This document shows, piece after piece, positions 45,679-62,139 of a stretch of DNA of 64,000 nucleotides; within the stretch, counting starts at the first letter, position 1; each line of letters starts with the position of its first letter. Position numbers and translations under genes: made by a program. The notes beneath the pieces are model-generated. The model saw only the letters and a program-made list of their open reading frames with translations. It had not been told where the DNA came from and did no database searches. The stretch is from an uncultured Oscillibacter sp. (GTDB lineage: Bacteria > Bacillota > Clostridia > Oscillospirales > Oscillospiraceae), in assembly GCA_905200545.1 (NCBI GenBank), contig CAJKKQ010000002.1, positions 1-64,000 on the forward strand, written 5' to 3'.

Positions 45679-45691
45679 AAAACAGGACGCC
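45677..45691 (+). repeat. Left terminal inverted repeat of element 2
   Basis: AAAAAACAGGACGCC, exact complement of 62,125-62,139. Confidence 0.85.
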
Positions 45692-45736
45692 GGTTCCGCT
45701 ACTCCTGATAGGGGTATCTTGAGGCGTGTCCTCGGA

Positions 45737-47481
<1,745 letters not shown>

Positions 47482-47504
47482 GTTTGTCTATGGGAACACA
47501 CTTT

Positions 47505-47771
47505 TCAGGCGGAAATATTTTTTGCGTCTTCCTCCAGATCAATGACTTGCTTCAGAAGTTCGACCGTAGATTGCGTTCCTCCGAAACCGAATTCCGCAAG
47601 CACAATGTATTCTCTGCCGCATACACTTTGCCGGCGGCTTTTCATGAGTTTACCGTTCCGTTCTTCCACTGCGGTATCCCGCACCGCCTTGGCGGATGGA
47701 ATGTCCTCATCTCCATGCAGTTCCTCATGAGCGAAGCGGGGACGCTCATTGTATTTGAATTGATACTCCAT
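47505..47771 (-). CDS. TnpW-like small protein, element 2
   Basis: 88 residues from MEYQFKYNERPRF (GGGGAAAGGAAC upstream). The C-terminal half REYIVLAEFGFGGTQSTVELLKQVIDLEE has the strand-strand-helix look of TnpW proteins, and it sits directly upstream of the recombinase as TnpW does. N-terminal half is charged and unmatched. Assignment is by context and pattern. Confidence 0.55.
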   Translation of the reverse strand: MEYQFKYNERPRFAHEELHGDEDIPSAKAVRDTAVEERNGKLMKSRRQSVCGREYIVLAEFGFGGTQSTVELLKQVIDLEEDAKNISA

Positions 47772-47820
47772 ATTGTTCCTTTCCCCTGACCTGCGGTCAG
47801 GCAACAAAAATAGCAGACCG

Positions 47821-49131
47821 TCACATGGTCTGCTGCCAAGTTGGTTCTTCTTCGTGATCGTCCTCCTTGTGACCGAGGGCGATTTTTATTTGCCGTTCCC
47901 GACGGAGCGCTTTCCGGTCCGTGTGCTGGTGCATGGTGGTGGCATCCCTTATGGGATCAGCAGCTTGATCACGCTCCAGAGAGCGGCCAAGCCGGACCAG
48001 ATCACCTGCAAGACCACCATACCCACCATGGTCCCCAGCAAAATCAGAGCCAGCCATATCATCACTGACATTGCAGTACCCAGACTGGGCGGAGAAACAG
48101 AAATCTCTTTCTTCTTCCCAGCCTGTTGCAGCAGCCGCTGTACTTCCGCCACATCCCGCGTCAGTGCCTCCATCTGCGCCTGGGTGGGGCACGGCTCCCT
48201 CCGGCTGGAAGCCTCCCGCAGAAGGGCTGTGTGGGCCGCTGTGTGCCGCTCCAGCTCGTCCAGCCGATGGAGCAGCTCCTGCCACTCCTCCTTGCTGGGA
48301 CAGTTCTGCGGTATCATACTCTGCGGAGCATTCCTCCGCTTCAATTCCTCCATGGGCAAGCGCTGCCCGGATTCTGAACTCATGTTCCATGACCTCCTTT
48401 GTGTACTTCTCCTCGTGGAGCCGGTCGTCCCGGCACTTCATTCCCGTGGGTGTGGTGTAGGTGATGTTCTTCCGGCTGTCCGTCCAGCGCACCTGATACC
48501 CCTCACTCTCCATCAGAGAGATGAATTCCTCCTTGCTGGCAGCGTACCGCATGCACTGGTCGATGGTGTTCATGAGCCGGAACTTCCAGCTCTCGCCCTT
48601 TGCGGCGGAGCGGTACTCCCTGGTGCTCATCCGCTTTTGCTTGACCTGCTTCTGCGGCGGCGGAAGGATCTCCAATCCATGGGCAGCACATATTTCATCG
48701 TTGGCCATCCGGTGGGCCTGCAGGTCGGCGGCACTCTGGTGGAGTTTGCGTCCATCTTGAAAGCTCACACTGTTCACCACAAGGTGGCTGTGCAGGTGGT
48801 CGGTGTCAATATGGGTAGCCACCAGTACCTCGAAGTTTGGGAACTCACGCTGAACCAATTCCAGCGCAATGGCGTGGGCCTCCTGGGGCGTCAGATCATC
48901 CCTCTCCGCAAAGGACTGCACGAAGTGATAGTACTGTCTGCCGTCTGTCTTATGGAATCGCTCCTTGGTGAGCTGCATTTCGGAGCAGACGCTTTGGGCG
49001 GTGCAGTTCCAGCCGGAGACCAGCCGACGATCTTCCCATGTGGTTTTCTCTTCCTGCTGGACATAGCGCAGCACACCGCCCAGAGCACCTCTGCCACCGC
49101 CACGATTTTTGATTGCGGTGAAGGTTGCCAT
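47821..49131 (-). CDS. Relaxase (MobA/VirD2-like)
   Basis: 436 residues. N-terminal relaxase domain with the HIDTDHLHSHLVVNSVSF metal-binding HxDxxHxHxH motif near residue 107 and catalytic Tyr candidates in RYVQQE and REYRSA. It nicks the transfer origin and pilots DNA for mobilization. From about residue 250 to 400 the frame is Gly/Ala/Ser-rich and low-complexity because another gene is read there in a different frame; the last residues (RRERQIKIALGHKEDDHEE) again look like a genuine mobilization-gene ending. ATG overlaps the MobC stop. Confidence 0.85.
   Translation of the reverse strand: MATFTAIKNRGGGRGALGGVLRYVQQEEKTTWEDRRLVSGWNCTAQSVCSEMQLTKERFHKTDGRQYYHFVQSFAERDDLTPQEAHAIALELVQREFPNFEVLVATHIDTDHLHSHLVVNSVSFQDGRKLHQSAADLQAHRMANDEICAAHGLEILPPPQKQVKQKRMSTREYRSAAKGESWKFRLMNTIDQCMRYAASKEEFISLMESEGYQVRWTDSRKNITYTTPTGMKCRDDRLHEEKYTKEVMEHEFRIRAALAHGGIEAEECSAEYDTAELSQQGGVAGAAPSAGRAGAAHSGPHSPSAGGFQPEGAVPHPGADGGTDAGCGGSTAAAATGWEEERDFCFSAQSGYCNVSDDMAGSDFAGDHGGYGGLAGDLVRLGRSLERDQAADPIRDATTMHQHTDRKALRRERQIKIALGHKEDDHEEEPTWQQTM
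47949..48383 (-). CDS. Nested membrane protein inside the relaxase gene
   Basis: 144 residues in another frame, wholly inside the relaxase gene. Well-formed protein: amphipathic coiled coil (PSKEEWQELLHRLDELERHTAAHTALL; ALTRDVAEVQRLLQQAG) followed by two hydrophobic segments (VMIWLALILLGTMVGMVVLQ and the C-terminal SGLAALWSVIKLLIP). The relaxase frame over the same bases is low-complexity, which indicates that the nested frame is the one under selection. Probably a transfer accessory protein at the membrane (inference). Confidence 0.7.
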   Translation of the reverse strand: MSSESGQRLPMEELKRRNAPQSMIPQNCPSKEEWQELLHRLDELERHTAAHTALLREASSRREPCPTQAQMEALTRDVAEVQRLLQQAGKKKEISVSPPSLGTAMSVMIWLALILLGTMVGMVVLQVIWSGLAALWSVIKLLIP

Positions 49132-49448
49132 CAGGTCACCTCCCGCAGCAGCTCCCGGAGCTGTTCATAAATTTTTCCGTAGTTTTCTGCCAGTGCGTCA
49201 CCCTTCAGAACTGTTACCCTCCCCATGTTGGCCAGGGTAGTGAGTTGATTTAGATTTCGCCCCTGGGCTTTCAGTTCAGACAGCACCTGTTCTAACCCTT
49301 CCACCCGCATGATCTCTTTTCCCAGTCCACTGTAGCACAGGTAATCAGTGACTGTCAGGCCAGCAGCCTTGGCTCGTTCCCGGATAGCTTCTTTCACACG
49401 GGGCGTCACCCGCAGGGTGATGATCTCACTCTTTTTTACTCTCTGCAT
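49131..49448 (-). CDS. MobC-like relaxosome protein
   Basis: 105 residues. N-terminal ribbon-helix-helix (SEIITLRVTPRVKEAIRERAKAAGLTVTDYL), then the MobC signature GRNLNQLTTLANMGRV. It opens the transfer origin for the relaxase. TGATG overlap with the relaxase start; candidate oriT hairpins lie just upstream at 49.54-49.60 kb. Confidence 0.9.
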   Translation of the reverse strand: MQRVKKSEIITLRVTPRVKEAIRERAKAAGLTVTDYLCYSGLGKEIMRVEGLEQVLSELKAQGRNLNQLTTLANMGRVTVLKGDALAENYGKIYEQLRELLREVT

Positions 49449-49512
49449 TACTCCTCCTTCTCCTCGTCGTCACAAGCTCCACATCTCTCGCTACTGCCGC
49501 TTGCGGCAGAGC

Positions 49513-50730
49513 TCATCCGTTTCGCTGTTCCTCCTCTCCCCACGGAATTTCGATTCCGTGGGGGCCCCGTATTTGGGCCGGGTACGGGGCAGCGCCCCGA
49601 AACTGTGCGCGGCGTATAGCCGGGCGCGATGCTTGCCCTCCCCGAAGGGAGGAATCCGTCTCCACGGCCCCCGCCGCACCCTCTCCAGACGGTTGGTCAA
49701 CGGCAGCAGGGTCGATAGGGACGATTTTTCCGGCACCCTCCAAATCGACACTATCGGCACGATTCAGCTCGATCACACGCTTGCCGTTGCTTCGGCGGAC
49801 CACTGCAGCAATCCCGTTTTTCCTTAGAGCCTCAACGCTTTGCAGGATCAGCCTTGAAATCTTTTTGGGCGTTACTCCTTCGGCCTTATCAGGGTCGATC
49901 TTTTCGGAGAGTTCCGTGGGAGTGCCGATAAATATTGTTCTGGTGCTCATAAATGCAGAGAGGAGAACAACGATCCGATCCTTACGCAGCACGGGTTCTT
50001 CTCTGCTGTCCGAAACCAACTCCCACACATTTTCCTCGCTGCGTCGAAGCTCCAACTCCCGGTATTCGATGTCCCGGCCCACGCAGGTCAGTCTGGCTCT
50101 GCCGCTGCCCCGCTTTTCTTCCACCAGTGTGAAGCTGGAATCCACTGCGCCGCTGATGGCAGTGGTGCCGGAGATCCGGTGGAACACATCTTCCGCCTTT
50201 TCTTTCCGCAGATGGTGGATGAGCAGGATGGCAATGCCGTGCTTGTCCGCCAGCCGCTTGAGCACAGACAGATCCCGGTAGTCATTGGCGTAGGTGGCGT
50301 CGTGGACCGGACGGACCATCTGCAGGGTATCGATGATGACCAGCACGGTGTCCGGATGAGCGGTGAAGAATGTTTCCACCTGTTCCTCCAGTCCCTGACC
50401 GATGAGGGCGCACTCGGTACAGAAGTGAACGCTGTCCGGTGCGTCCTCCGTGATCTCAAACAGCCGGTTCTGGATACGGAGGACGGAATCCTCCAGACAG
50501 AGATAGAGGCTGGTACCCTGCCTGGTGGTCATGTTCCACACCGGTTCTCCCTTGGCCACTGTCACGGCCAGCCACAGAGCCAGCCAGGACTTGCCCACCT
50601 TTGGTGACCCTGCCAGGATGTGCAGGCCCTGCGCAAGCAGGGTGTCCACCACAAAATTGGGCAAGTGAAGTGGTTGGCTCATCAAGGTTGCTCCATCCAC
50701 TGTGCAAAGCGGTGCGTTGTTTTTTCTCAT
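49513..50730 (-). CDS. RepA-like AAA ATPase (RecA-fold)
   Basis: 405 residues from MRKNNAPLC (AAGGAGG upstream). RecA-fold helicase-type ATPase: Walker A AGSPKVGKSWLALWLA, Walker B VLVIIDTLQMVRP, HHLRKEKAEDVFHRISGTTAISGAVDSSF. This is the RepA/hexameric-helicase type found in mobilizable plasmids and elements, followed by a winged-helix-like C-terminal part. The last 40 codons coincide with GC-rich inverted repeats that look like a transfer origin, which may dictate the odd C-terminal sequence. Supports an excised, possibly replicating circular form. Confidence 0.85.
   Translation of the reverse strand: MRKNNAPLCTVDGATLMSQPLHLPNFVVDTLLAQGLHILAGSPKVGKSWLALWLAVTVAKGEPVWNMTTRQGTSLYLCLEDSVLRIQNRLFEITEDAPDSVHFCTECALIGQGLEEQVETFFTAHPDTVLVIIDTLQMVRPVHDATYANDYRDLSVLKRLADKHGIAILLIHHLRKEKAEDVFHRISGTTAISGAVDSSFTLVEEKRGSGRARLTCVGRDIEYRELELRRSEENVWELVSDSREEPVLRKDRIVVLLSAFMSTRTIFIGTPTELSEKIDPDKAEGVTPKKISRLILQSVEALRKNGIAAVVRRSNGKRVIELNRADSVDLEGAGKIVPIDPAAVDQPSGEGAAGAVETDSSLRGGQASRPAIRRAQFRGAAPYPAQIRGPHGIEIPWGEEEQRNG
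49538..49599. other. Candidate transfer origin (oriT)
   Basis: Three adjoining inverted repeats: CCCCACGGAAT with a TTCG loop (49,538-49,563), GCCCCGTA/TACGGGGC (49,564-49,590) and CGGGGC/GCCCCG (49,585-49,599). They sit about 90 bases upstream of mobC, the usual place for oriT in MobC/relaxase modules. The nick site is not determined. Confidence 0.55.
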
Positions 50731-50808
50731 AGTCCATTCCTCCTTATTTTGAATATGAAAAGCGCCCACCTCAGTGAGCGCTTCCGGGAAAGGGATTTTT
50801 CCTTTCAC

Positions 50809-50836
50809 TTGATTATTCTGGGAGTTTTGATAAAAT
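50809..50836 (+). promoter_or_regulatory. Promoter of the DUF6076/sigma-like pair
   Basis: TTGATT, 16-bp spacer, TAAAAT, 51 bases before the ATG. Confidence 0.7.
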
Positions 50837-50887
50837 GAGAATATCACAAGACAGGGCCAAAATGGATATAGGACAGGAGGGGGACAC

Positions 50888-52012
50888 ATGCCGCTGGGGA
50901 TCAAGCAGAACAACAACCTGCTGTACCTCACACTGGACGTGTGGCAGGATTTAGTTTTTCTGAACGAGCAAGCCTATCCCGCCGGATATTTTGCGGCCAA
51001 TATCATGAATCAGGATCAGGCAACCCTTCAGGCCCTGATCCATTACGGCGGTGCCATCAGCAAAGAGGCGGAAGCACTCCTGAACGCAGATCGGGACACC
51101 TTTGCCCGTCTGCTCCCACAGGTGCGCTCAGATGTGTCCGCCCTGCTGGATGTGCTGTGGACATACCCGCCCTTCTGCTTCCTGGACAAGTCTGGAGAAC
51201 TGGAGGTGCTGGATCAATATTGCCGCGAGAACATGGTGGATGCCCTGATGTCGACCGAGGCCCCGTATCGGGATTTTTTCTTGCACTACCTGGCCGCCGC
51301 CTTTGCGATCCCCCTGGGGATCTACCATTTTGTTGTAGCGGCGGACTACTTTGAGCGGGGATATCTCTACCGGCTCAAGGAGCGGAACGAGACTTTCTTT
51401 GCCATTGCTGCCCACGACTGTTTCACCAGCGACGACTTCTGGCATGTGATGGACGCTCTTCCCTTGCCGGATATTGAAAAATTTACGGTGTCCCCAGTCA
51501 TGGAGTCCACATACATCTTTGCCAGGAACCCTACCCAGAAAGAAAAGATGGTGTTCGTCCAGCGCGTCCGCTTCCACAGGATCATGTCGTTCTACTGCTT
51601 CGACTTGATGAACGGCCTGCACCACGGCCACGCCCCCTGCGTCTGCCAGAATTGCGAGCGGTATTTTCTTACCCGCAGCGGGCACAAGCCCAAATACTGC
51701 AGCGGCATAGCTCCCCAGGACAGCCGTCTGACCTGCCGCCAGTACGGAGCCATGATGCACCAGAAGGAGCAGAACAAGCAGCACCCTGTCTACCGTCTGT
51801 TCAGTACCCGCACCAACACCATCCGCAAGCATCACCAGAGAGGAAAAATTTCCGACGAGCTGCGGCGGGAAGCACTGTATCTCGCGGAGGCCTATCGGGA
51901 CCGGGCGCTTATGGACAACGACTATGCTGCCGGAGACTATGCCCACGACATGGAACAGGAGACGCTTTATGCTCAGGCGAAAGCACGCCTTGCTCAGGAG
52001 GACAAACCATGA
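50888..52012 (+). CDS. DUF6076-like protein with C-terminal zinc finger
   Basis: 374 residues, ATG after AGGAGGGGG. Helical body; near residues 250-290 a zinc-finger-like block CVCQNCERYFLTRSGHKPKYCSG then DSRLTCRQYGA, characteristic of DUF6076/CGNR-like proteins common in Clostridia mobile elements. Probably a nucleic-acid-binding regulator. Its stop overlaps the start of the sigma-like gene (ATGA). Confidence 0.75.
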   Translation: MPLGIKQNNNLLYLTLDVWQDLVFLNEQAYPAGYFAANIMNQDQATLQALIHYGGAISKEAEALLNADRDTFARLLPQVRSDVSALLDVLWTYPPFCFLDKSGELEVLDQYCRENMVDALMSTEAPYRDFFLHYLAAAFAIPLGIYHFVVAADYFERGYLYRLKERNETFFAIAAHDCFTSDDFWHVMDALPLPDIEKFTVSPVMESTYIFARNPTQKEKMVFVQRVRFHRIMSFYCFDLMNGLHHGHAPCVCQNCERYFLTRSGHKPKYCSGIAPQDSRLTCRQYGAMMHQKEQNKQHPVYRLFSTRTNTIRKHHQRGKISDELRREALYLAEAYRDRALMDNDYAAGDYAHDMEQETLYAQAKARLAQEDKP

Positions 52013-52974
52013 GCATGTATCTCTGTGATGCTCCCTGTCCCAGCAACGAGGAGCTTGCCCGGCGTATACAGGAAGGCGATCCAGAGGCCGCTTCGCTTCT
52101 GCTTTCCCAGAACGAGGGATTCCTGACCATGCTGGCCGCAAGCTACTGCGAACAATTTTCTCAGGATTTTCTGGCGGACGATCTTAAGCAGGAGGGTGCG
52201 CTGGCACTGCTGGACGCGGCACAGCGGTTCGATGTTTCCATGGGAACCAGGCTGCTGACCTACGCCACGCCCGCCATTGAAACGGCCATGAAGGACTGTG
52301 CCGCCCAAAGTTCTTTTTCTCTGTCACTCCCGCTGGACCGTTACTACCAGCTGCGTCAGGTGGCGTTCCTCTATGCCGCACACGAGCAGGACACCGAAGC
52401 AGATCTTCTGACCGCCATTCAAGAGAAGCTGGAAGTTTCCGTCAAAGTGGCCAAGCGTCTGCTGGAGGAATACCGCACCGTGTTCCAGATCGAGTCCCTG
52501 GGTGAGCGAGTCTTTGATATTAGTTTTGGTGGTGATCCCGCCAAGGCCTATGACCGTTTCATGCGCCGGACGCTGCTTCTCCAGCGCGTGGAGGAGGTAC
52601 TCAAGCCCAGAGAGCTGAACTTGGTGCGCTGTTACCTGGGGATCGGCCAGCCCAATGAGCAGGGCATGACCTTTCAGGAACTGGCCATCCGGCTGAACTA
52701 CAACGGCCCCAGCGGCGCGGAGAAGGCGTATAAGAGCGCCATCCGGAAGCTGAGAAAGCAGCGAAACGGCGGCGCTTACGGTCGGTGGCTCTCCATCCGG
52801 AAAGCGATTCAAACCGCACGCCGGGAGGCCAGCAGAGAGATAGGATACAGTTCACCCCAGTCCACATGGCTGGATGAACAGGAGCTGATTCGGGGATTTT
52901 TGTGTAAGACAGCGGTGTTGCGCCGTGTGTATCATATTCTGCACACGGCAAATGAGGAGAATCCAAACGGGTAG
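52009..52974 (+). CDS. Sigma-70-like protein, element 2
   Basis: 321 residues from MSMYLCDAPC. Region 2-like helices (ELARRIQEGDPEAASLLLSQN ... FLADDLKQEGALALLDAAQRFD ... GTRLLTYATPAIETAM) resemble sigma regions 1.2-2.4, and LKPRELNLVRCYLGI leading into TFQELAIRLNYNGPSGAEKAYKSAIRKLR is region 4. Coupled to the DUF6076 gene. Likely an element-specific transcription factor; target promoters are unknown. Confidence 0.82.
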   Translation: MSMYLCDAPCPSNEELARRIQEGDPEAASLLLSQNEGFLTMLAASYCEQFSQDFLADDLKQEGALALLDAAQRFDVSMGTRLLTYATPAIETAMKDCAAQSSFSLSLPLDRYYQLRQVAFLYAAHEQDTEADLLTAIQEKLEVSVKVAKRLLEEYRTVFQIESLGERVFDISFGGDPAKAYDRFMRRTLLLQRVEEVLKPRELNLVRCYLGIGQPNEQGMTFQELAIRLNYNGPSGAEKAYKSAIRKLRKQRNGGAYGRWLSIRKAIQTARREASREIGYSSPQSTWLDEQELIRGFLCKTAVLRRVYHILHTANEENPNG

Positions 52975-52987
52975 CCTAAAGCAAAAG

Positions 52988-53020
52988 GAGGGACCGGAAT
53001 TTCCGGCCCCCCCTGTTTTC
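52988..53020 (+). terminator. Terminator after the sigma-like gene
   Basis: GGGaCCGGA/TCCGGcCCC stem followed by TGTTTTC, about 15 bases past the stop. The facing surface operon ends nearby. Confidence 0.6.
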
Positions 53021-53054
53021 TGGGGTTTATTTTATTGTAGGATGCTTATGTCTA

Positions 53055-53165
53055 CTATTCCCGCCACAGGAAGGTCACGGCCTGAGCGCGGGACACCGCC
53101 GCATCGGGGCCATAGGCGGTGATACTGATGTCCTTGGTGATACCTCCTACTACCACCCAGGTCAT
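53055..53165 (-). CDS. 36-residue ORF encoding the end of an SLH domain
   Basis: Starts ATG overlapping the sortase stop (ATGA) and reads MTWVVVGG, ITKDISITAYGPDAAVSRAQ, AVTFLWRE, stop. The core (GI.....I..YGPD..VSRAQAVTFLWR) is the C-terminal half of an S-layer homology repeat. Either a remnant of an SLH wall protein or a small coupled peptide. Too short for a working SLH domain alone. Confidence 0.6.
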   Translation of the reverse strand: MTWVVVGGITKDISITAYGPDAAVSRAQAVTFLWRE

Positions 53166-53995
53166 CGCGTTGAGGTACTGGAACGCTTCTCCCGAGCCAC
53201 CACTACAAATCTGCCGTCCTCGGTATGATAGCTGCAGGTGGACAGGGTCAGCAGCCGGTCTCCATACTCTGCCGTGACACCCAAGTCGTATAGAGAAGCG
53301 GACATAACTTCCTCTATGTAATACTGAAACGCATCAGGGTCGGAAAGATCTGTGCCGTAATAGTATCGAAACACATTTTCCTCGTCCACCGAGTAAATGC
53401 GGCTGTAAAAAGCTGCCATGACTTCAAAGGTCAACCGCTCATAGCTGCCGTCCGGCTGAATCAGGTCGTAGATGATTTTCTGGTGTTCTCTGGCGTAGTC
53501 CTCATCTGCATAGGAATCCAGGCTTCCAAACATGGAGTCGTCCTTCATGTTGTGTCCATAGATGATGATATTGCTTCCATCCGGGAAACTGTTGGCTCCG
53601 ATGAACAGGCTGCCGCTCAGAGCATAGCTGCCGTCAAACGCCCTTCTCAGATAATACTCCGGCTCCTCCGGGGTATACAAAACCGGGTAGTCCACTTCGG
53701 TGTCCTCCATCATCAGCCAGGCCGCCAGGTGGCTGTTCTCCTGAATAAGAGGCTGGTAATTGCGTTCCTGCTCTGATGTCTGGGCGCTCGTAGAATTGCC
53801 GCTGCTTGTTTCAGAAGTACCTTCACCCAGGGAAACCCCCTGCTTCACTCGCTGGACCAGCGCCTCATTGGCTGCCTGTTCACGGGCAGAGCGAACAAAA
53901 TCATGGATCAGCATTCCACTGGAGAATATAAACAGCAGTACAAAGGCCACCGTCAGTCCTTTCCGTCGAGCAGAAACCTTCTTTCCTTGGCGCAT
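53162..53995 (-). CDS. srtB: Class B sortase
   Basis: 277 residues from MRQGKKVSARRKG (AGGAGG upstream). N-terminal signal-anchor helix about 15-35, Ser/Thr-rich linker, sortase barrel with catalytic His in IIIYGHNMKDDSMFG, Cys in LLTLSTCSYH and Arg in VVVAREKR, the class B layout. It cleaves a sorting signal and joins the protein to peptidoglycan. The large wall protein encoded just upstream ends with TPQTG, close to the (S/P)PXTG motif used by Clostridioides difficile SrtB, so they are a matched enzyme-substrate pair (inference). Confidence 0.93.
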   Translation of the reverse strand: MRQGKKVSARRKGLTVAFVLLFIFSSGMLIHDFVRSAREQAANEALVQRVKQGVSLGEGTSETSSGNSTSAQTSEQERNYQPLIQENSHLAAWLMMEDTEVDYPVLYTPEEPEYYLRRAFDGSYALSGSLFIGANSFPDGSNIIIYGHNMKDDSMFGSLDSYADEDYAREHQKIIYDLIQPDGSYERLTFEVMAAFYSRIYSVDEENVFRYYYGTDLSDPDAFQYYIEEVMSASLYDLGVTAEYGDRLLTLSTCSYHTEDGRFVVVAREKRSSTSTR

Positions 53996-54051
53996 TGATT
54001 TCCTCCTAAAAGCTGTGCCGGCGAGAAAACTCGCCGGCACAGTGGAAAATA

Positions 54052-57000
54052 CTATTTTTCCCGGATCCGCTTGCCCCGATAGAACATCTTGCTCTTTTGA
54101 ATAAAGACAATACCTCCCAAGGAGATCAGGCACAATATGGCCCACAGGCCGGTTCTGCTGGAGTCTCCCGTCTGAGGCGTATCCGAATCATTCGGGGTGT
54201 CGGGGGTGTCCGGCTGATCGGGACGATTAGGTTCGTCTGGAATATCGGGATCGGGGTCCGGGTCAGGATCGGGATCCGGGTCAGGATCGGGGTTCGGGTC
54301 AGGATCGGGGTCCGGGTCAGGATCGGGATCCGGGTCAGGATCGGGATCAGGGTCCGGGTTAGGGTCGGGATCAGGATCTGGGTCGGGTTCCGGATCTGGG
54401 TCGGGAGTTGGACCAGGATTGGGGGTGCCATTTTTTTCGTTGGTAAAGGCTGCGGTGGCAGTCTGCCCTATTTGGATCGTTCCTGTGCCGCCGGTGTAGG
54501 TGGTGGTGTAGCCGTCCCTATCGGCCCCCTCCTCGGTCACTGTATAGTTGAGTCCTGCGGGCAGGCCAGTGGCCGTCTTGCTCTCATTGTGTTTGAGCTT
54601 GAAGGTGGCCACGCCGTTGTTGAAGAACATCCCGCCGTAGGTGCCGCTGATCGTGGTGTCACTTAGGGTCACGGTGAAATTCCATTCCTTGTCTGTGTCC
54701 CCGGCGGTACCGGTCACTTTTTTCGAGACGGTCAAGCTGCCTCCATCCTTCACATTTGTCACCTGCACCGTGCAGGTACCGGAAAAGAGACTGGTAATAT
54801 CCTGAGTGTACAGATTTGTTTTCGGAGAATTCAGCTGCCCATGATGCTCCATGCACTGCTGGATGCTCAGCCGTCCCCAGCCTTCATCCACACGCAAGGC
54901 GACCGAGTCGCACGGATTACTGGGGCCGTATTCCAATATTTTGTCGTTCGCACTGTAACTCAAATGCAGGGCGGTGTTCCAGCTTTCTTCGTCCACCGTG
55001 CCCCATTCGATGCTGTTCCCCGTTTCCGTACCTGTCTGTAGCACGGCCTTGATGTCGTGGAGGGTTGCATCCACGTGGTCATCCACCGCAAACTGCACCA
55101 TACTCTTGAGGATGGACCCCACGCCTCGGAACACGGCCACACCGTCATCCTTGTCACCCGCGTCGGCGTAGACGCCGGTGTCGTCTACGATGATTTTAAC
55201 GATCTCATCACTCTTCACATATCCATCCGGAGCACTTGTCTCTACCAGATAGTAAGTACCGTTTACCAGATCCTTTTCCGCTCCAAAAATCGCGCCGCCC
55301 TCCATATCCGGTTTGCTAAGTTTACCGGTCGTCTGGGTATCATAGGCATTTCCAGTTATGGTACCGTCATCACTCACCGTGACTTCATTGGCGTCATATA
55401 GCGCAAATGTTGCCGGTGTTGTGATTGGGTTCCCAGTTTCATCCACCTTCTGCACCAGCAAATAGTTCTTGACATTGGGAATATAGAGATGGGTGGAGAA
55501 CTGCCGGTCAAAGTCGTCGGTGTACAGTCGGGTCAACTTACCAGTCGGATCTTCATAATAATAATTGACGGTATATTTGGTCTCTTCATCGGGTTCCTGA
55601 CTTTGCTGGAGGTACCAATAGTAGGTGGTGATGTCGCCGGGCAGGTTCTCCAGGGTCACCTGGAAGGCGCCGCCGGTGGTCAGTTCAAACTGGTTCTCTT
55701 CATCCTGTTTGTTTTTCTCAATAGCCGATTTGATACGTTCCGTAAGATCCACATCGGGATCATCCCACACTTTCCAGCCGTCCTCCGCATTGCCGGACAC
55801 CGGCGCCCAGTTGTTCTCGTCAGTGACTGGTTCTTTCATATCCAACCGCTTGAATACCACGGCGTAGATCGTGGGGAAAGTCGAGTCTCCTGCAGTGGTA
55901 CTGTCAAATATTTTATCTCCCTTTCCACTATCAGCCATCTTGTAAAGCTCTGTTGTGGCGGTGGTGGTGATCTTTGGCTGGGCGTAGGAGCCGGTGGACC
56001 AGTAATGATCCGAGAGGATCAGTCCGGTCGCTGGAATATATTCCAGATAGGTATCGGATACCTTTCGGTAACCGTCCGGCACCTCTTTTTCACGCAGGAT
56101 GAAATGGTTCGTGTCATAGATCTCGGCCAGTTCCTGAAAGACCAACGGCGAATTGGTGTCTTCATCCCAGATGACCAGGCTGCCGTCCTTTCCGGTGGTT
56201 CCGGTCCAAATGGGATCATTTTCATAGTCCTTTTTGATAGTGTAGCTTTTAGTTCCATCGGTCGCTTTTTCAGCCGGATACAGTTCAAAAGTGATGCCCT
56301 CCAGCTTATCGCCCAGCTGGTCCACCTTGGTGATCTCACTTTCGGGAATGGGGATCAGATTGAATTTCAGGCTCATGTTGGAGTCATAATTGCCCCGCTC
56401 CAAATAGAAAAATTTCAAGGTGTGGTAGGTGTCGTCGGCAAAGGTGGTGTTGTTCCAGTCGTCGGGATCCAAGCCGTCATCGCCCAGAGCGGCCGCAAAC
56501 TGCGCATAAAGTGTTGTGTCTTTCCATAGAGTATCACTGCCTTCATCATACAGATTGTCCCGATCTTTATCGGTATAGACCACGACCCTACCGGTCTGGA
56601 AATCAATCTGAACGCTGCACATGTCGTGAATGCCGCCCACGTCAGCCACCAGCACGCCGTCAATAAAAATCCACACATCGTTATCGCCGGAGAAGTTGTA
56701 GGTCACCGGCTGCTCTCCGTAAGTGTTTCCGCCGTTTTTCTGCACGAAGCGGGTGGACATGGTCAGGCCGAAGTAGTGATTCATAGCTTCATTTTCAGAA
56801 GTGACCCCCGTCTTCTGTGTCAGGTCGTTATCATTTTCCATAAACACCGTTTTCGGATTCACAAAGGGGAAAAACTGTCCATCCGGGCTGGTCCCCCTCC
56901 TTGGCACGCCCCAAGTATCATAGAGGACAAACTCTTCGGTTGTCTCATTGAACCAGGCGTAGTTCTCCTGACTGTTGTAGTAATAGTAACCGTCCTCATC

Positions 57001-58101
57001 AACCTGGAGTAGCCCGCCCACATTGGAGAAGGACTGCTTTCCTTCATTATCGGTTTTCGGATCAAACAGATAGGCAAGAGACTCATCATATTGATTGTTC
57101 AACTTATTCAGAGCCGGGTAGCCGTCCTCGCCCAGTGTCGTCTGCACAATGCCTGTCCATGGTTTGGCCGATCCAGTCCATTGGTTCCAACCACCCTGAC
57201 CATTTTTAAAGAAAAGCAGCGCATGATCCTTGTTGATCCCCTGCTCTCTTAAATTTTGTGGTTCATCATCATCCGCATCGTCCCTGTTTGTCAGCCAATA
57301 GTCAAACAGATTGATGACCGTGCCGGAGGGATAAGTTTCCTCGGGCTCTATCACATACTGGGAAAAGGGAGTTTCTCCGGTGCCTGTGGTATCCTCGTCT
57401 GTACCGTCGTCACCGCTCAAAGTGTCTTCGCTGCCCAGCTTGACAGTGATCTCCAGAGGGTCGGCACCATTTGCCAGCGCATACTTGTCCGATGGCTCCG
57501 CCGTATTGCCGCTTCGGGTGCTGACGTCTCCAGCGGTGTTGTCCTCTCCGGCGGTGCTGTCCCCCTCCTCACTGGTTTCTGCCTCGTCAGAAGCACTCGT
57601 GTCAGCGTCACCATCCTCATCCTGCTGGGGAATCATACCCAGAGAGGCTGTGAGTGTATAGTCTCCGCTGACTGCGCCTGCTTCCGGAATCTCAGTGAGA
57701 TCCCAAGCGAGATCCAGCGTTTCCGATGTCCCGTTGCCCATCGTAGCGTTAATCTGCATGGGCAGCAGTTTTTTCAGTGTGTCACTGGTCAACGGATTGT
57801 CCTGACTGACGCCGGGCATTTCCATCACCCAGACGCCATCGGATTCTTGGAGGGCATCCTGCTCATCCACCCATTTCCAGGCGGCTACGCAATAGGGACA
57901 GCCCACTGTGGCATACTTGCATGAGGAGTTATCTTCTCCGCACTCTTGTGTGTGTTGCGGATGGTGGACGCAACAGCCGTCAGGGTTTTCTTCCGCATGG
58001 GCAATAACACTGGGCAAGCACATGGAAAGCAATATCATCACAGCCAAAATCATGGCCTTTACCCTTTTCAGGTGTAACCATATATTCCTTTTATTTCTCA
58101 T
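54052..58101 (-). CDS. Large sortase-anchored surface protein (fibro-slime and Cna-B-like domains)
   Basis: 1349 residues from MRNKRNIWLHLKRVKAM (GAGG site; a start three codons upstream is less likely). Signal peptide to about residue 36, a Cys/His cluster (CCVHHPQHTQECGED ... CPYCVAAW), acidic linker, a fibro-slime/PA14-like domain around 360-620 (YNFSGDNDVWIFIDGVLVADVGGIHD), SpaA/Cna-B-like domains (LEGITFELYP; NGTYYLVETSAPDGY), a DUF7601-like domain (GGSLTVSKKVTGTAGDTDKEW), a long Pro-Asp repeat wall spacer, and a sorting signal TPQTGDS, membrane helix and basic tail. Adhesin-like protein anchored by the adjacent sortase. Confidence 0.92.
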   Translation of the reverse strand: MRNKRNIWLHLKRVKAMILAVMILLSMCLPSVIAHAEENPDGCCVHHPQHTQECGEDNSSCKYATVGCPYCVAAWKWVDEQDALQESDGVWVMEMPGVSQDNPLTSDTLKKLLPMQINATMGNGTSETLDLAWDLTEIPEAGAVSGDYTLTASLGMIPQQDEDGDADTSASDEAETSEEGDSTAGEDNTAGDVSTRSGNTAEPSDKYALANGADPLEITVKLGSEDTLSGDDGTDEDTTGTGETPFSQYVIEPEETYPSGTVINLFDYWLTNRDDADDDEPQNLREQGINKDHALLFFKNGQGGWNQWTGSAKPWTGIVQTTLGEDGYPALNKLNNQYDESLAYLFDPKTDNEGKQSFSNVGGLLQVDEDGYYYYNSQENYAWFNETTEEFVLYDTWGVPRRGTSPDGQFFPFVNPKTVFMENDNDLTQKTGVTSENEAMNHYFGLTMSTRFVQKNGGNTYGEQPVTYNFSGDNDVWIFIDGVLVADVGGIHDMCSVQIDFQTGRVVVYTDKDRDNLYDEGSDTLWKDTTLYAQFAAALGDDGLDPDDWNNTTFADDTYHTLKFFYLERGNYDSNMSLKFNLIPIPESEITKVDQLGDKLEGITFELYPAEKATDGTKSYTIKKDYENDPIWTGTTGKDGSLVIWDEDTNSPLVFQELAEIYDTNHFILREKEVPDGYRKVSDTYLEYIPATGLILSDHYWSTGSYAQPKITTTATTELYKMADSGKGDKIFDSTTAGDSTFPTIYAVVFKRLDMKEPVTDENNWAPVSGNAEDGWKVWDDPDVDLTERIKSAIEKNKQDEENQFELTTGGAFQVTLENLPGDITTYYWYLQQSQEPDEETKYTVNYYYEDPTGKLTRLYTDDFDRQFSTHLYIPNVKNYLLVQKVDETGNPITTPATFALYDANEVTVSDDGTITGNAYDTQTTGKLSKPDMEGGAIFGAEKDLVNGTYYLVETSAPDGYVKSDEIVKIIVDDTGVYADAGDKDDGVAVFRGVGSILKSMVQFAVDDHVDATLHDIKAVLQTGTETGNSIEWGTVDEESWNTALHLSYSANDKILEYGPSNPCDSVALRVDEGWGRLSIQQCMEHHGQLNSPKTNLYTQDITSLFSGTCTVQVTNVKDGGSLTVSKKVTGTAGDTDKEWNFTVTLSDTTISGTYGGMFFNNGVATFKLKHNESKTATGLPAGLNYTVTEEGADRDGYTTTYTGGTGTIQIGQTATAAFTNEKNGTPNPGPTPDPDPEPDPDPDPDPNPDPDPDPDPDPDPDPDPDPDPNPDPDPDPDPDPDPDPDIPDEPNRPDQPDTPDTPNDSDTPQTGDSSRTGLWAILCLISLGGIVFIQKSKMFYRGKRIREK
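54240..54429 (-). repeat. Pro-Asp codon repeat (wall-spanning spacer)
   Basis: Roughly 60 residues of alternating Pro-Asp with a few Pro-Asn and Pro-Glu, encoded by GGGTCAGGATC-type 6-mer repeats. Prone to length change by replication slippage. Confidence 0.9.
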
Positions 58102-58143
58102 ATACCTCATCCTTTATATTTTGCTGGTCCTGCCGGACACAGT

Positions 58144-58431
58144 TTACAGTACAATCCTCTCTTTCTGTGATGAACGATGGTGAATGTCCATACCATCCAA
58201 CAACTGCACCAACCGCGCTTTTGCGGCCTGGGCCGTGTTCTCCGGCGGCGCACCGGTCAGGTAGTTCAGCGCATCGTTCCAGTCCTGAATATCCTCCTCC
58301 CGGGGTGTCAGCCGGTCCAGCTTTTGCGCCAGATACCGGCGCTGCTCCCGTGACAAAAACCGCAGATCAGACAGGCACATGCAGCCCATTTGAATGGCCA
58401 GTAAGTCCAGCAGTGATTGCTTTACCATCAT
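58144..58431 (-). CDS. Small helical protein in the surface operon
   Basis: 95 residues from MMVKQSLLDLLAIQ (AGGAGG ten bases upstream). Predicted helical, with LTPREEDIQDWNDALNYLTGAPPEN and a Lys/Arg-rich end. Lies between the zinc-ribbon genes and the wall protein, 42 bases before the latter; overlaps the degraded zinc-ribbon gene by 65 bases. No family recognised. Confidence 0.65.
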   Translation of the reverse strand: MMVKQSLLDLLAIQMGCMCLSDLRFLSREQRRYLAQKLDRLTPREEDIQDWNDALNYLTGAPPENTAQAAKARLVQLLDGMDIHHRSSQKERIVL

Positions 58432-58768
58432 ACCTGCATGACCTCCTTTGTTTCCGCCAGCATTCACTCATAGTGGATTTTTTGCCATTGACGGTCCCCG
58501 CACAAACCGGACATCCTTTCTGGCGTTTTCTGACTTGGAAATACACACCTGCTTTCCGAGCATGGTCTTCTACACAGATCCACCAGGCCTTCTTATGGGC
58601 CCCCACCGTGACTATCTGCGTTGTCAGTTGACCATTGAGGCCAGGTGCCGCCGTGCCGCTATGCCGCTATTTTCGCAGGTGCCGGGGAAGATTGGCCTGA
58701 CCGTCCCATTGGGCAAGCAAATCCGGAAGGTTTTCCCGACGACAAAAGGCAGTTAAGCTTTTCCCCAT
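58367..58768 (-). pseudogene. Second zinc-ribbon paralogue, interrupted by an amber codon
   Basis: Frame from MGKSLTAFCRRENLPDLLAQWDG through LRK-TAG-RHSG to KKAWWICVEDHARK and GCPVCAGTVNGKKS. The start resembles MRESLQDFCIREGRQELLKEW of the gene upstream, and KAWWIC...GCPVCAG is one zinc-ribbon repeat. A TAG about 35 codons in breaks it, and the second Cys/His pair is altered (CVEDHA instead of CEKGHxW), so it is decaying. Confidence 0.7.
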
Positions 58769-58769
58769 T

Positions 58770-59929
58770 TCACAAATCCCCCGGATTGGTGGGCTGCATG
58801 GCAAAGGCGCTATGTATAAGCTCCATAAACCGATACTGTTTCAAACGTTTTTGGCTGACTCGCCCGGCACAGATGGGGCAGCCGCACTTTTTTGGCCCTG
58901 TGCGGGAATAAATTGCCGCCTGCCATACATGGCCCTGCTCACATTCCCACCATACCTTGCGGTGGGAACCCCCGGTTACCATCTGAGGCGTCAAAGTACC
59001 GTTCAGCACAGGGTGCCACTGCCGGGCCACATCTGGGGTCAGCGTAGCCAAATCATTGAACCCAGGCAGCACCTTTCGTCCGGCACAGTAGGGACAGCCG
59101 CTGCCGCTCATGGTACGGGCCCCCCTATTGCGGCCAGGTATTCGTGACCTTTCTCACAACGCCACCACACTTTGCGGTTGGAACTGGGCGTGACCTGCTG
59201 TGGAGTAAGATTGCCGTTTTTTTCGGAATGCCACTGTGCAGCAATGGCCGGAAACTGACTGGCCAGGTCATTTTCCCCGGCCACCACCTTTTTCCCGGCG
59301 CATACAGGGCAGCCGCTTCCACCAGAGGTGTGAGATGCCACGGAAGCCTGCCACTCGTGCCCCTTCTCACAGCGCCACCATACCTTCCGGGAGGTGCCCG
59401 GCGGAATCTGCGCTGGGGTAAGACTCCCGTTTTTCGTGGGATGCCACTGGCTGGCGATCTGGGGGTACTGGGCAGCAAGATCGTTTTCAGCGGGGTGTAT
59501 CTCCCGGTTAGCGCAAACCGGACAGCCGCAGCCGGATACCCGGGACTTGATCTGCGCCTGCCATTGGTGCCCTTTTTCACAAATCCACCACACCATCCGG
59601 TGGCTGCCGGGGAGCACCTGCTCAGGGGTAAGATCGCCATTGCGAGTGGGATGCCACTGGCGGGCCAGTTCCGGAAAGCGCGTGGCCAGATCGTTCTCAC
59701 CCGCCTGAGCCACCTTACCGGCGCAGACCGGGCAGCCGGTTCCGCTGCCGGTCCTGGTATCTACCGTCGCCTGCCAGCTGTGGCCCTTCTCGCAATGCCA
59801 CCAGACCTTGCGCTTGCTGCCGCGGGAGATAACAGCCGGAGTAAGGGGGAGATTTGTGTCCGCTGCCCATTCCTTCAGCAGCTCCTGCCGCCCTTCCCGT
59901 ATGCAGAAGTCCTGCAGACTTTCCCGCAT
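58770..59929 (-). CDS. Five-repeat zinc-ribbon protein with a frameshift
   Basis: Start MRESLQDFC with GGGGGG eight bases upstream. Repeats of about 70 residues with the pattern NDLAxxxPxxAxQWHPxxNGxLTP ... VWWxCEKGHxWQA ... GCPVCAG (DUF4379/treble-clef zinc-ribbon family). After the fourth VWWRCEKGH the frame stops at 59,108, but the fifth repeat continues at once in another frame (GCPYCAGRK ... QWHPVLNG ... VWWECEQGHVWQA). One added G in the G6 run at about 59,117-59,122 restores a single frame of about 386 residues. First gene of the surface operon. Function of the family unknown; probably nucleic-acid binding. Confidence 0.8.
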
Positions 59930-59950
59930 GGGCAATACCCCCCTTCTATG

Positions 59951-59966
59951 CAGAATCGACATTCTG
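59951..59966 (+). repeat. Left inversion site
   Basis: CAGAATCGACATTCTG: 6-bp arms around CGAC, extended to imperfect 11-bp arms (CTATGCAGAAT/ATTCTGAATAG). Confidence 0.9.
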
Positions 59967-59999
59967 AATAGAACTTTTTCTTCTTCCCGGGTAAATGAA

Positions 60000-60028
60000 A
60001 AAGACGGCATAAAAAATCGCCCGTCTTT
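60000..60028 (-). terminator. Leftward terminator inside the invertible segment
   Basis: AAAGACGG/CCGTCTTT stem; on the minus strand it continues TTTTTCATTT. It would block read-through into the surface operon in the OFF orientation and stop acting leftward after inversion. Confidence 0.65.
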
Positions 60029-60124
60029 CTGCCGGAAAGAGGGCGAAAGGGCGCAGGAAGCCAGGCCGCAAATGCAGAGTATGCTTGCGGCCTATGCTTT
60101 TGCGTCCAAAACCTGGAAAATGAC

Positions 60125-60153
60125 TTGTCTTTCGTGTCCACGCCTGCTATAAT
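60125..60153 (+). promoter_or_regulatory. Strong promoter inside the invertible segment
   Basis: TTGTCT, 17-bp spacer, perfect TATAAT. Points right, antisense to the recombinase gene. No comparable leftward promoter was found within the segment. Confidence 0.85.
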
Positions 60154-60190
60154 GATGATGTATTATTCCATTATGTAGTCGATATTGGGA

Positions 60191-60206
60191 CAGAATGTCG
60201 ATTCTG
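60191..60206 (-). repeat. Right inversion site
   Basis: CAGAATGTCGATTCTG, exact reverse complement of the left site. Confidence 0.9.
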
Positions 60207-60209
60207 TGA

Positions 60210-61055
60210 CTACGACACAAGTCCCAGCCGGTCAATTTCCCGCTGATGCTCTGTGCCGGAAGTAACCAGGTAGATGCGTGTAGTTTCGATGTTGCTGTGG
60301 CCCAACAGGTCAGCCAGTTTGGCAATGTCCCGGCAGGTACGGTAGAACACTGTGGCAAACAGGTGCCGCAAATTGTGAGGAAACACTTTCCCTGGCTCCA
60401 CGCCTGCGTACTTGCACAGCCCTTTCAGCTCCGCCCAAATCTGTCGGCGGCCAAGTTCTTTTCCGCTTTTGGTGCGAAAGATCGCGCCGGAAGCGGTTTT
60501 CTGTTTTTTGGCGTACTTCAGCAGCTTGCGGCAGAGCTTTCCAGGGAGCAGGATGGTGCGGATTTTGCCTTTGAGGGCGATCTCGGCTTTGCCCTGTTGA
60601 ACAGCTTCTACGGTGATATACGCTACTTCGCTGACCCGGATACCGGTGGCGCCAATGGTCTCCACCAGAAGTCCCAGCCGTTCCCGCCCCAATTTGTAGG
60701 CCGTGTTCAGAAGACGCTGGTAGTCATCCTTTGTCAACTCGCGGTCGGCATCCCGAAACAGGCGGCGCTGGATTTTCAGAAACTTCACCCGGCACTCCCG
60801 CAAGTCGAGAAACTCCAGCAGACTGTTCAGGGCGGAGAGCATGGCATTGACTGTGGTCGGGGCATAGTCCTGGGACACAAGATGGGCTTTCCACTCCGAG
60901 GTCAGCTCCTTGCTGATGTCACGACCATCAAGCCAGCAGATAAACGCCCGGATATCCCGCAGATATTTCTCCATGGTTGCGCCGCTCTTTTCCTCCATCT
61001 GAAGATGATGGGCGTATGCTCGGATTTGTTGTTGTGTCAATTGATGATTCTTCAT
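60210..61055 (-). CDS. Tyrosine recombinase (XerC/D-like), proposed invertase
   Basis: 281 residues. N-terminal SAM-like core-binding domain (about 5-95; EKYLRDIRAFICWLDGRD) and catalytic domain with Arg in GATGIRVSEV, Lys in ALKGKIRTILLP, HNLRH, His in LLGHSN and the nucleophile Tyr in TTRIYLVT. Gene ends 3 bp from the right inversion site and has no excisionase partner. The element already has its own serine recombinase for movement, so this enzyme most likely flips the adjacent promoter segment, as RecV does for cwpV in C. difficile (inference). Confidence 0.93.
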   Translation of the reverse strand: MKNHQLTQQQIRAYAHHLQMEEKSGATMEKYLRDIRAFICWLDGRDISKELTSEWKAHLVSQDYAPTTVNAMLSALNSLLEFLDLRECRVKFLKIQRRLFRDADRELTKDDYQRLLNTAYKLGRERLGLLVETIGATGIRVSEVAYITVEAVQQGKAEIALKGKIRTILLPGKLCRKLLKYAKKQKTASGAIFRTKSGKELGRRQIWAELKGLCKYAGVEPGKVFPHNLRHLFATVFYRTCRDIAKLADLLGHSNIETTRIYLVTSGTEHQREIDRLGLVS

Positions 61056-61108
61056 AGAGACCCTCCCATTGGAATGATATTGCTATTGTACAGGAAGTGT
61101 GGAGACAA

Positions 61109-61144
61109 CAAAGCCCACAGCGGCAGATACCGCTGTGGGCTTTG
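61109..61144. terminator. Strong terminator upstream of the tyrosine recombinase
   Basis: 15-bp perfect stem CAAAGCCCACAGCGG with a CAGATA loop. It ends the small zinc-ribbon transcript (minus strand) and isolates the recombinase gene. Confidence 0.85.
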
Positions 61145-61237
61145 TGTGCCGTATTGATAGGTTTGCCACTGGCACGGGAAAGATATACGCTGATTGGGTT
61201 CTTTTCTCATAGTATTCCATCCTCCTGAACTGTAAGG

Positions 61238-61441
61238 TTATCTTCTTGCCTGCGGGAACCGGTGAGGTTCTGCCACACACTGGTACAGCACTGCTCCGCA
61301 GCGGCGGCAGATCAGATACTTCAGTCGATTTCCCAGCAGTCCGTGATATTTGAAAGTAACCAGGGCTTCTCCGTGCTGCCAGCCCTCTCCGATGTCTTGT
61401 GAGCCGCAGTACTGGCATCTGGTAACGGGAACTTGTGTCAT
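61238..61441 (-). CDS. Small zinc-ribbon protein
   Basis: 67 residues from MTQVPVTRCQYCG (GAGGAG nine bases upstream). Two CxxC knuckles, CQYCGSQDIG and CRRCGAVLY, make a zinc ribbon like those of transcription-factor or DUF-type proteins. Alone between two terminators inside element 2. Unknown function. Confidence 0.75.
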   Translation of the reverse strand: MTQVPVTRCQYCGSQDIGEGWQHGEALVTFKYHGLLGNRLKYLICRRCGAVLYQCVAEPHRFPQARR

Positions 61442-61595
61442 AGCATTTTTCTCCTCTCTGTGTTGATGACTGCAAACACACAATACCGAGAGACGATTCA
61501 GAAGTCCAGAGAATGTTGCTGCTCCAAATGTAGAAGTTCAGAGATAATGAAATTGCAATATACCTAAAAACATTGTGCGCCTGACCGCATAAAAA

Positions 61596-61886
61596 TCAGG
61601 CATCTCTCTCCGCTTCTTCCGCTGGAAAGGGATGCCTGTCCGTTTCAAAGTGATTCAATTCGTATGCCAGTTCCCACGCCAATTTAAACCCGCAGTAGAA
61701 ACTGTCCATGGAGCGTTCTTCCGCAATCAGACTCTGGTTATCCATGATCCGCAGCACCAGTTTTCTCTCTGGCTTTTCCAATCGCTCGATGAGCTGCTTG
61801 TGACAATCTTCAATTTCCTGCTCAGCTTCCGCCATGGGCAGTGGCGTGTAAAATCTGTTGTAGAGCTGTTTCAGAGCGTCGTTCAT
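61596..61886 (-). CDS. DUF6809-like small protein
   Basis: 96 residues from MNDALKQLYNRFY (AAGGAGG upstream). Helical; the pattern KQLIERLEKPERKLVLRIMDNQS then FYCGFKLAWELAYE fits the DUF6809 group of short element-borne proteins. Last gene before the right end of element 2. Confidence 0.7.
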   Translation of the reverse strand: MNDALKQLYNRFYTPLPMAEAEQEIEDCHKQLIERLEKPERKLVLRIMDNQSLIAEERSMDSFYCGFKLAWELAYELNHFETDRHPFPAEEAERDA

Positions 61887-61994
61887 GTGTCCTACCTCCT
61901 TGCAGCAAGACACCATACCACAGGTCAGTTGAAAAAGCCACTAAAATATTTGAATGGTTCCTAATCGTTTGGACGCTTTGAAGTATAGGCATAA

Positions 61995-62033
61995 AAATAG
62001 CCGTAAGCCACGCAAAGTGGCTTGCGGCTATTT
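61995..62033. terminator. Terminator near the right end of element 2
   Basis: 17-bp stem AAATAGCCGTAAGCCAC (one mismatch) with a GCAAA loop. A shorter CTGGGG/CCCCAG hairpin follows at about 62,047-62,063. The gap 61,887-62,143 holds no gene. Confidence 0.8.
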
Positions 62034-62124
62034 CCCCATTTTTGTCTGGGGCGACACCCCAGGGCCTCTCTCAATCGGTCATTCTTGGGTTCATCGCAAG
62101 ATGTCCTTATGAGGAGTAGCCCTT

Positions 62125-62139
62125 GGCGTCCTGTTTTTT
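62125..62139 (-). repeat. Right terminal inverted repeat of element 2
   Basis: GGCGTCCTGTTTTTT, exact complement of 45,677-45,691. Chromosomal sequence resumes at once; the next stop codon is five bases on. Confidence 0.85.

Follow-up and report, generated by a model that had tools for sequence, protein, structure and literature searches.

A predicted invertible promoter with an adjacent tyrosine recombinase before a sortase operon on a mobilizable element of an uncultured Oscillibacter

Between a sortase operon and a tyrosine recombinase gene of an uncultured Oscillibacter sp., two short inverted repeats enclose a small piece of DNA, which raises the question whether this piece is a switch that the neighbouring recombinase turns around, so that the operon would be read in one orientation only. 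We addressed this question in the window, the whole stretch of 64,000 nucleotides that was analysed, and in relatives of the recombinase. The repeat CAGAATCGACATTCTG at 59951-59966 (+ strand) returns as its exact reverse complement at 60191-60206 (- strand), with 224 bp between the two. Across the 64 kb, no other 16-mers form a perfect inverted pair at a spacing of 50-1000 bp; in random sequence of the same composition about 0.006 such pairs (gap 100-400 bp) would be expected. Each repeat has a short arm on either side of a centre (CAGAA-TCGACA-TTCTG), and the left one sits in a longer imperfect palindrome (59944-59973). With the structure seen in relatives, we read both repeats as putative recombination sites with a 6-bp crossover (overlap) region, TCGACA, at 59956-59961 on the + strand and its partner at 60196-60201. 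The segment predicted to invert is 59967-60190 (unstranded), and the whole unit, repeats included, spans 256 bp.

Inside the segment lies a predicted promoter, TTGTCT-17-(TG)TATAAT, at 60125-60153 on the + strand, a motif match that also has the extended -10 TG and that recurs in position and motif in relatives. It reads away from the operon and toward the recombinase gene, the orientation called OFF. The unit therefore has the make-up of an inverton, a short segment between inverted repeats with a promoter inside, the promoter being a match of sequence. The earlier note on this DNA had described the two exact 16-bp repeats 224 bp apart, their negligible chance occurrence, this promoter pointing away from the operon, a tyrosine recombinase gene stopping 3 bp from the right repeat and an operon beginning 22 bp outside the left one. 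The repeat search, the one pair observed against 0.006 expected, the promoter coordinates, the recombinase stop at 60210 and the likely first ATG at 59929 bear all of this out. A T-run hairpin against leftward read-through had been claimed as well; a terminator facing the operon is indeed predicted, but the best one is the 30-nt hairpin 60046..60017 (- strand, -16.6 kcal/mol, tail TTTTTTAT at 60016-60009). It overlaps the hairpin apparently meant in that claim, and the two would exclude each other. The centre of the segment holds a further hairpin, GGCCGCA..TGCGGCC (60063-60093, unstranded), possibly a two-way insulator. This hairpin recurs in relatives, where its pairing support was modest (268 paired cells vs at most 264 in 500 shuffles), and RNAalifold over whole segments of relatives did not find a consensus structure.

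The gene to the right of the segment (60210-61055, - strand) encodes a tyrosine recombinase of 281 aa, as identified by Pfam domains, catalytic alignment and structure-sequence matches. Phage_integrase (PF00589) and SAM-like domains were found, and the catalytic set is complete (R140, K164, H227, R230, H253, Y262); the same residues R, K, H, R, H, and Y were kept in all 67 aligned recombinases located upstream of such segments. Together with sites made of two arms around a short overlap, this catalytic domain with R-K-H-R-H-Y places the enzyme among the tyrosine recombinases. It scored below cut-off in all ten NCBIfam models that it matched, including those for XerA (149.7 vs 220), XerD (116.3 vs 329.6), and XerC (110.7 vs 335.2); among solved structures, XerC-like and XerD proteins matched its sequence best. 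It is likely the invertase of the segment. Upstream of the gene, at 61108-61145, two perfectly complementary 16-bp arms enclose a 6-nt loop, likely a terminator that would separate the recombinase gene from the next gene.

To the left, all operon genes lie on the - strand. The first gene (59108-59929; Pfam, ORF list) encodes a protein with tandem DUF4379 domains (treble-clef zinc finger), and a Shine-Dalgarno sequence, AAGGGGGG, stands between the left repeat and the ATG at 59929. The ORF list has a longer version that begins at an ATG at 60010; this ATG falls within the segment, and inversion would separate it from the gene. The MRESL/MRETL position is the start in relatives L042 and L009. 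A second DUF4379 ORF (58770-59111; ORF list, Pfam) is followed by a small protein with predicted helical structure (58144-58467), which matched no Pfam family, recurs in switched operons of relatives and is called LSDLR after its motif. The next gene (54052-58110) encodes a likely wall-anchored surface protein of 1352 aa with a hydrophobic N-terminus, SpaA and DUF7601 domains and a C-terminal TPQTG-type sorting signal read by eye; a stricter sorting-signal pattern gave no match in this protein. A sortase (53162-54145, Pfam Sortase above cut-off) completes the operon; its score with the class B model was 141 bits, below the cut-off of 154. The operon thus has the DUF4379 and LSDLR genes and is without the recombinase paralog found in some relatives.

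Taken together, 59951-60206 is very probably an invertible promoter, flipped by the adjacent recombinase and OFF as assembled here, that would drive the operon when ON. The recombinase would recombine the two 16-bp sites and thereby flip the 224-bp segment. While OFF, the promoter would point away from the operon and transcribe the recombinase gene in antisense, and the terminator 60046..60017, facing the operon, would stop read-through from the recombinase gene. When ON, it would drive the DUF4379, small-protein, wall-protein, and sortase genes with a leader of about 67 nt. From the arrangement we infer that the recombinase cuts these sites, the locus can flip, its promoter works and the operon is expressed bistably.

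To place the window among related loci, we collected recombinase copies from several sources. The recombinase query gave 15 loci in named genomes, all relatives there being Oscillospiraceae and other Clostridia, and matches at E <= 1e-75 were found in at least 94 of 400 genomes of one family, at least 37 of which had two to six matches each; the best six candidates per genome were scored, and genome and copy counts are therefore lower bounds. Plasmid records gave one match, whereas a scan of viral contigs gave no relative and phage records likewise none. In total, 100 distinct copies were assembled from the window, named genomes, family genomes, and one plasmid; the choice leaned to the top by E-value (79 of 150 listed places, plus five more). 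The 87 copies with at least 340 nt past the stop formed the set for the site search.

Paired sites after the recombinase stop were present in 71 of these 87 copies, window included, when searched by the arm consensus alone with the centre unused. The remaining 16 had no clear site pair by this consensus; a separate scan gave a repeat pair in eight and none in three of them, and the other five lay outside that scan. In all 71 loci the central 6 bp were equal between both sites (0 of 426 positions differed), while arm positions differed within loci at 55 of 710 positions (Fisher p 3e-12). Between loci, the centre varied within the form TNNNNA, the site as a whole following CARAA[TNNNNA]TTYYG, with 40 distinct 4-bp cores, and when partners were shuffled among loci, at most 12 of 71 centres matched in 20,000 trials. 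The 71 loci are mutually related, as are the 48 segment pairs considered below, and such counts overstate independent events; nevertheless, relatedness alone would not make two sites agree at the centre yet differ in the arms. For a tyrosine recombinase, the exchanged bases have to be identical in both sites, whatever their sequence. Given this requirement and the equal centres at all 71 loci, TNNNNA, here TCGACA, would be the strand-exchange region, and the site centres behave as the crossover region of a tyrosine recombinase. Different centres for all copies within one genome turned out to be only partly right: among 18 multi-copy genomes, 44 of 51 within-genome pairs differed in the 6-bp centre and seven were the same, so that separation of neighbouring switches would be common, not general. 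A third copy of the site near one segment end, downstream of the recombinase, was seen in L012/L049, L039/L053, and L041, and could allow more than two states.

We then asked in which orientation the segments stand. The usual place of a promoter motif, TTGNNN-17-(TG)TANAAT, is about 41-56 bp away from one segment end. Judged by the promoter, a first set of 69 loci comprised 48 OFF, 13 ON, and eight unclear cases; with a positional filter, 71 loci gave 46 OFF, 12 ON, and 13 unclear, the window being OFF. Independent of promoters, homologous segment pairs (blastn E <= 1e-6, best match per pair) stood in opposite orientation relative to the recombinase in 15 of 48 cases. The strongest opposite pair, L105/L118 (82% over 204 bp), consists of two copies in one genome, and the segments of L038 and L138 are likewise opposite (76% over 205 bp).

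Assembly breaks gave a second kind of evidence, since a mixture of both orientations should make contigs stop at the site. Such stops, 18-26 nt beyond the end of the gene, were seen in six recombinase-side contigs of five genomes. Partner contigs were sought for one site per genome in these five genomes, the second G251 contig being left out. The end of another G296 contig coincided exactly with the same site, in G393 the neighbouring contig shared an overlap of exactly 55 bp that ended at the site, and in G251 another contig started with the site with one mismatch. In G228 the same site occurs in two recombinase copies, and this repeat explains the contig break equally well; for G249, no partner contig was found for the site within its genome. 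When the 150 listed places were counted, a contig ended within 30 nt on 5 of 77 scorable 3' sides vs 0 of 69 5' sides (Fisher p 0.04), and within 300 nt on seven 3' vs two 5' sides (p 0.11), a modest difference; five of the nine contig ends within 1 kb 3' fell at 18-26 nt. Contig L096 runs through recombinase, site, segment, and site and then into a reversed recombinase end of at least 68 bp, a path that needs an inverted junction unless it is an assembly artefact.

Terminators like that of the window are also predicted among the relatives. A folding scan of 58 oriented segments placed an OFF-state terminator toward the operon in 39. In the operon-proximal 45% of the segment this was the case for 24 segments vs three for the mirrored direction; structures reading the opposite way occurred in 27 of 58 segments in all. 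An ungapped terminator scan (19 of 58 segments with a terminator facing the operon, 13 with one in the opposite direction) had missed bulged stems, that of the window included, and was set aside in favour of the folding scan. Such a terminator was present in 36 of 46 OFF loci vs three of 12 ON loci (p 0.001), to which the cruder scan adds one ON locus, L156. That ON loci (examples are L087, L095, L123, and L155) are mostly without terminator is not predicted by a pure flip-flop, and some ON-called loci may be locked or derived.

These data allow the other readings of the locus to be weighed. A short non-coding sequence bounded by short inverted repeats, as the 256-bp unit is, might be an IS-like or MITE-like insertion that came by chance to lie next to an ordinary integrase or resolvase. 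In 71 of 87 copies, however, the unit keeps its place behind the recombinase stop and the two site centres co-vary, which led us to reject an origin as MITE or IS; homologous loci in opposite orientations also speak against it, and with one exact copy of the site in the G249 genome and two in that of G296, the site is not dispersed there. We consider this explanation hardly credible. It is unlikely, too, that the switch is locked OFF or decayed here, the machinery being ancestral and the operon read from elsewhere or silent. While the closest relatives of the window (L001, L042, L043, and L052) are OFF or cut off within the segment, as a locked state would have it, both repeats of the window are perfect, the six catalytic residues are present and the promoter and terminator matches are intact, so that there is no sign of decay.

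Inversion might, on the other hand, act chiefly on the recombinase itself: in the OFF state an antisense RNA over the 3' end of its gene would give feedback on the switching rate, the operon being secondary. In the window, as in 45 other OFF loci, the promoter match does face the recombinase gene; beyond the other site, however, many relatives have the start of an ORF at a distance of no more than about 60 bp (29 such ORFs were collected), pointing to the operon, and a main role in feedback is quite unlikely. An invertible promoter for the sortase and wall-protein operon with its own recombinase, as the earlier note had put it, is thus well supported by the relatives; the label "RecV-type" attached to it did not hold, as discussed below.

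What the switches of relatives would control was read from the genes downstream. Of 52 large downstream proteins collected, 42 were scanned with Pfam: 14 had S-layer homology domains, 14 InlB-type repeats, four DUF7601, and two SpaA, and glycosyl hydrolase, glycosyltransferase, transporter, and other domains occurred once each. Nine proteins from a separate scan comprised five large surface-type proteins, one protein with a GLUG motif, one sortase, one GGDEF-EAL protein, and one protein without a family. In L044, which is in ON orientation, the switched gene encodes a GGDEF-EAL protein, so that some cassettes would switch second-messenger signalling. In L051 (G014), a switch without DUF4379 precedes a related pair of wall protein and sortase; the recombinase match of this locus comes in two pieces, and a stop is reported within it.

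Within 2.5 kb of the switch, and mostly directly after it, a DUF4379, LSDLR, or recombinase paralog gene was found in 35 of 66 loci (12, 13, and 15 loci, respectively, with overlap). The catalytic tyrosine was present in none of the 15 paralogs of switched operons. Mostly the tyrosine-less paralog is the first gene of the operon; the loci are L085, L090, L092, L093, L094, L099, L103, L104, L110, L111, L113, L114, L129, and L130, with L083, where a remnant is fused to the surface protein, as the fifteenth. It is a candidate for a state-dependent regulator of inversion, to which we would ascribe a feedback role. The LSDLR protein, with the motif 'SLLDLLA..LSDLRFLS..WNDALxYL' and no source name, had 162 relatives at E <= 0.001 and occurs in the window and in L037, L040, L042, L043, L051, L089, L097, L098, L101, L112, L119, and L125. 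The fold search with a model of this protein (mean pLDDT 71) brought no significant match (best E 2.3), and no function is therefore claimed. PADLOC, run on five proteins, found nothing. In the parts of the openly licensed literature that we consulted, we saw neither a dead paralog nor DUF4379 described for such switches.

The earlier note had also placed the switch on a mobilizable element, and this holds, with boundaries at about 45692-62124. The integrated element (16.4 kb, unstranded, mostly lower in G+C) sits in the loop of a terminator hairpin, whose halves flank it at 45677-45691 and 62125-62139 between convergent genes. In the relative G001 (locus L172) the element-flanking genes are neighbours with the whole terminator hairpin between them, an empty site. 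The inner ends of the element carry imperfect inverted repeats (CTACTCCT.ATA.GG..ATCTTG). On the - strand it encodes a large serine recombinase (45737-47461, profile matches), which is likely its integrase, a MobA/VirD2-like relaxase (47821-49131), and a NikA-like mobilization protein (49131-49448); the cargo consists of the sortase operon, the switch and its recombinase. Integrase, relaxase, defined ends, and an empty site in a relative are the features of an integrative mobilizable element, and the 16.4-kb element presumably moves. Its right part, 60124-61955, is 94% identical on another G001 contig (L001). Another cassette lies on a Pusillibacter faecalis plasmid typed as conjugative, with an S-layer protein downstream.

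Beyond the window, we tentatively put forward a wider reading, which as a whole is rather doubtful: a large Clostridia family of portable bistable cassettes, each with its own recombinase, its own 6-bp code, and a feedback gene expressed only when ON. The 6-bp crossover code could keep neighbouring switches apart, and the ON-only gene (dead recombinase paralog, DUF4379, or LSDLR) might feed back on the recombinase and set or hold the state. If true, a mobilizable cassette would bring a new host a ready-made phase-variable surface programme. The window shows how an integrated mobile element can carry surface-protein genes along with the device that would make them bistable. The 6-bp rule, same within a locus and free between loci, lets recombinases be paired with their sites by reading sequence and makes the pairs testable for mutual independence, and the recurrent dead recombinase in switched operons of relatives makes it testable whether such switches sense their own state.

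How does this switch compare to known systems? In the fim switch, the promoter lies inside the invertible segment with the recombinase genes next door, and two recombinases (FimB and FimE) act together with accessory host factors. In place of FimB and FimE, the window has one recombinase beside the switch, to which some relatives add a dead paralog. As in the fim switch of E. coli, the target would be a surface structure; the fim switch is also mentioned in the consulted part of PMC2784873. The RecV switches of C. difficile, as far as the consulted parts of PMC2784873, PMC5386303, and PMC5903667 describe them, share with the window a tyrosine recombinase, a short segment between inverted repeats, control of a wall protein and, for cwpV, an OFF state modelled as a terminator. 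RecV, however, is unlinked and serves several switches with 21-bp imperfect repeats, in contrast to the adjacent dedicated recombinase and perfect 16-bp repeats of the window. According to the same partial text, recV is not near cwpV, the cwpV promoter is upstream of the inverted segment (PMC2784873), and the flagellar switch sits in a 5' untranslated region (PMC5386303), a place that puts its promoter outside the segment as well. In the window the recombinase is adjacent, relatives have their own adjacent copies and the promoter match is inside the segment; an unlinked master recombinase and a promoter outside the segment, which mark the RecV type, are not what was found here.

Mobile switches have been described before. 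Bacteroidales ICEs carry resistance genes with an invertase and an invertible promoter (PMC8748976, consulted in part); their cargo is antibiotic resistance, whereas the element of the window has relatives in Clostridia and a sortase and wall-protein cargo. In inverton group 145, of Bacteroidota and Firmicutes_A, a tyrosine-type recombinase, relaxase, and MobC are enriched nearby, and the authors take the mobilization genes as a sign of horizontal spread (PMC11892184, in the excerpts consulted). Invertons near mobilization genes are therefore already in print. In those excerpts group 145 overlaps restriction subunit S genes, while the window has an intergenic promoter before a surface operon.

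The closest published kind, by span, recombinase proximity and recombinase class, appears to be inverton group 139. The accessible part of its description (PMC11892184, 2025) lists 33 invertons, 32 of them from Clostridia, linked to invertase group 35 of the tyrosine type, and nearly all members have such a recombinase close by. Two examples, in Intestinimonas butyriciproducens and Clostridium sp. D5, span 255 and 257 bp; orientation shifted in reads over passages, in one case together with surface attachment. Like the window, the group, as described there, has a span of about 255 bp (window 256), a tyrosine-type recombinase within 5 kb (window 3 bp), and a mostly Clostridia distribution. The same part of the text has no within-locus crossover code, no sortase operon on an integrated mobilizable element, and no dead-recombinase, DUF4379, or LSDLR genes, all of which occur in the window or its relatives. 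Judged from its sequence, the locus would be a well-supported case of a type of switch already known, here in a version borne by a mobilizable element and with family-wide rules that we did not see stated in the literature consulted; its newer aspects appear to be the mobile sortase operon and, in relatives, the dead recombinase relative in the switched operon (15 of 66 loci).
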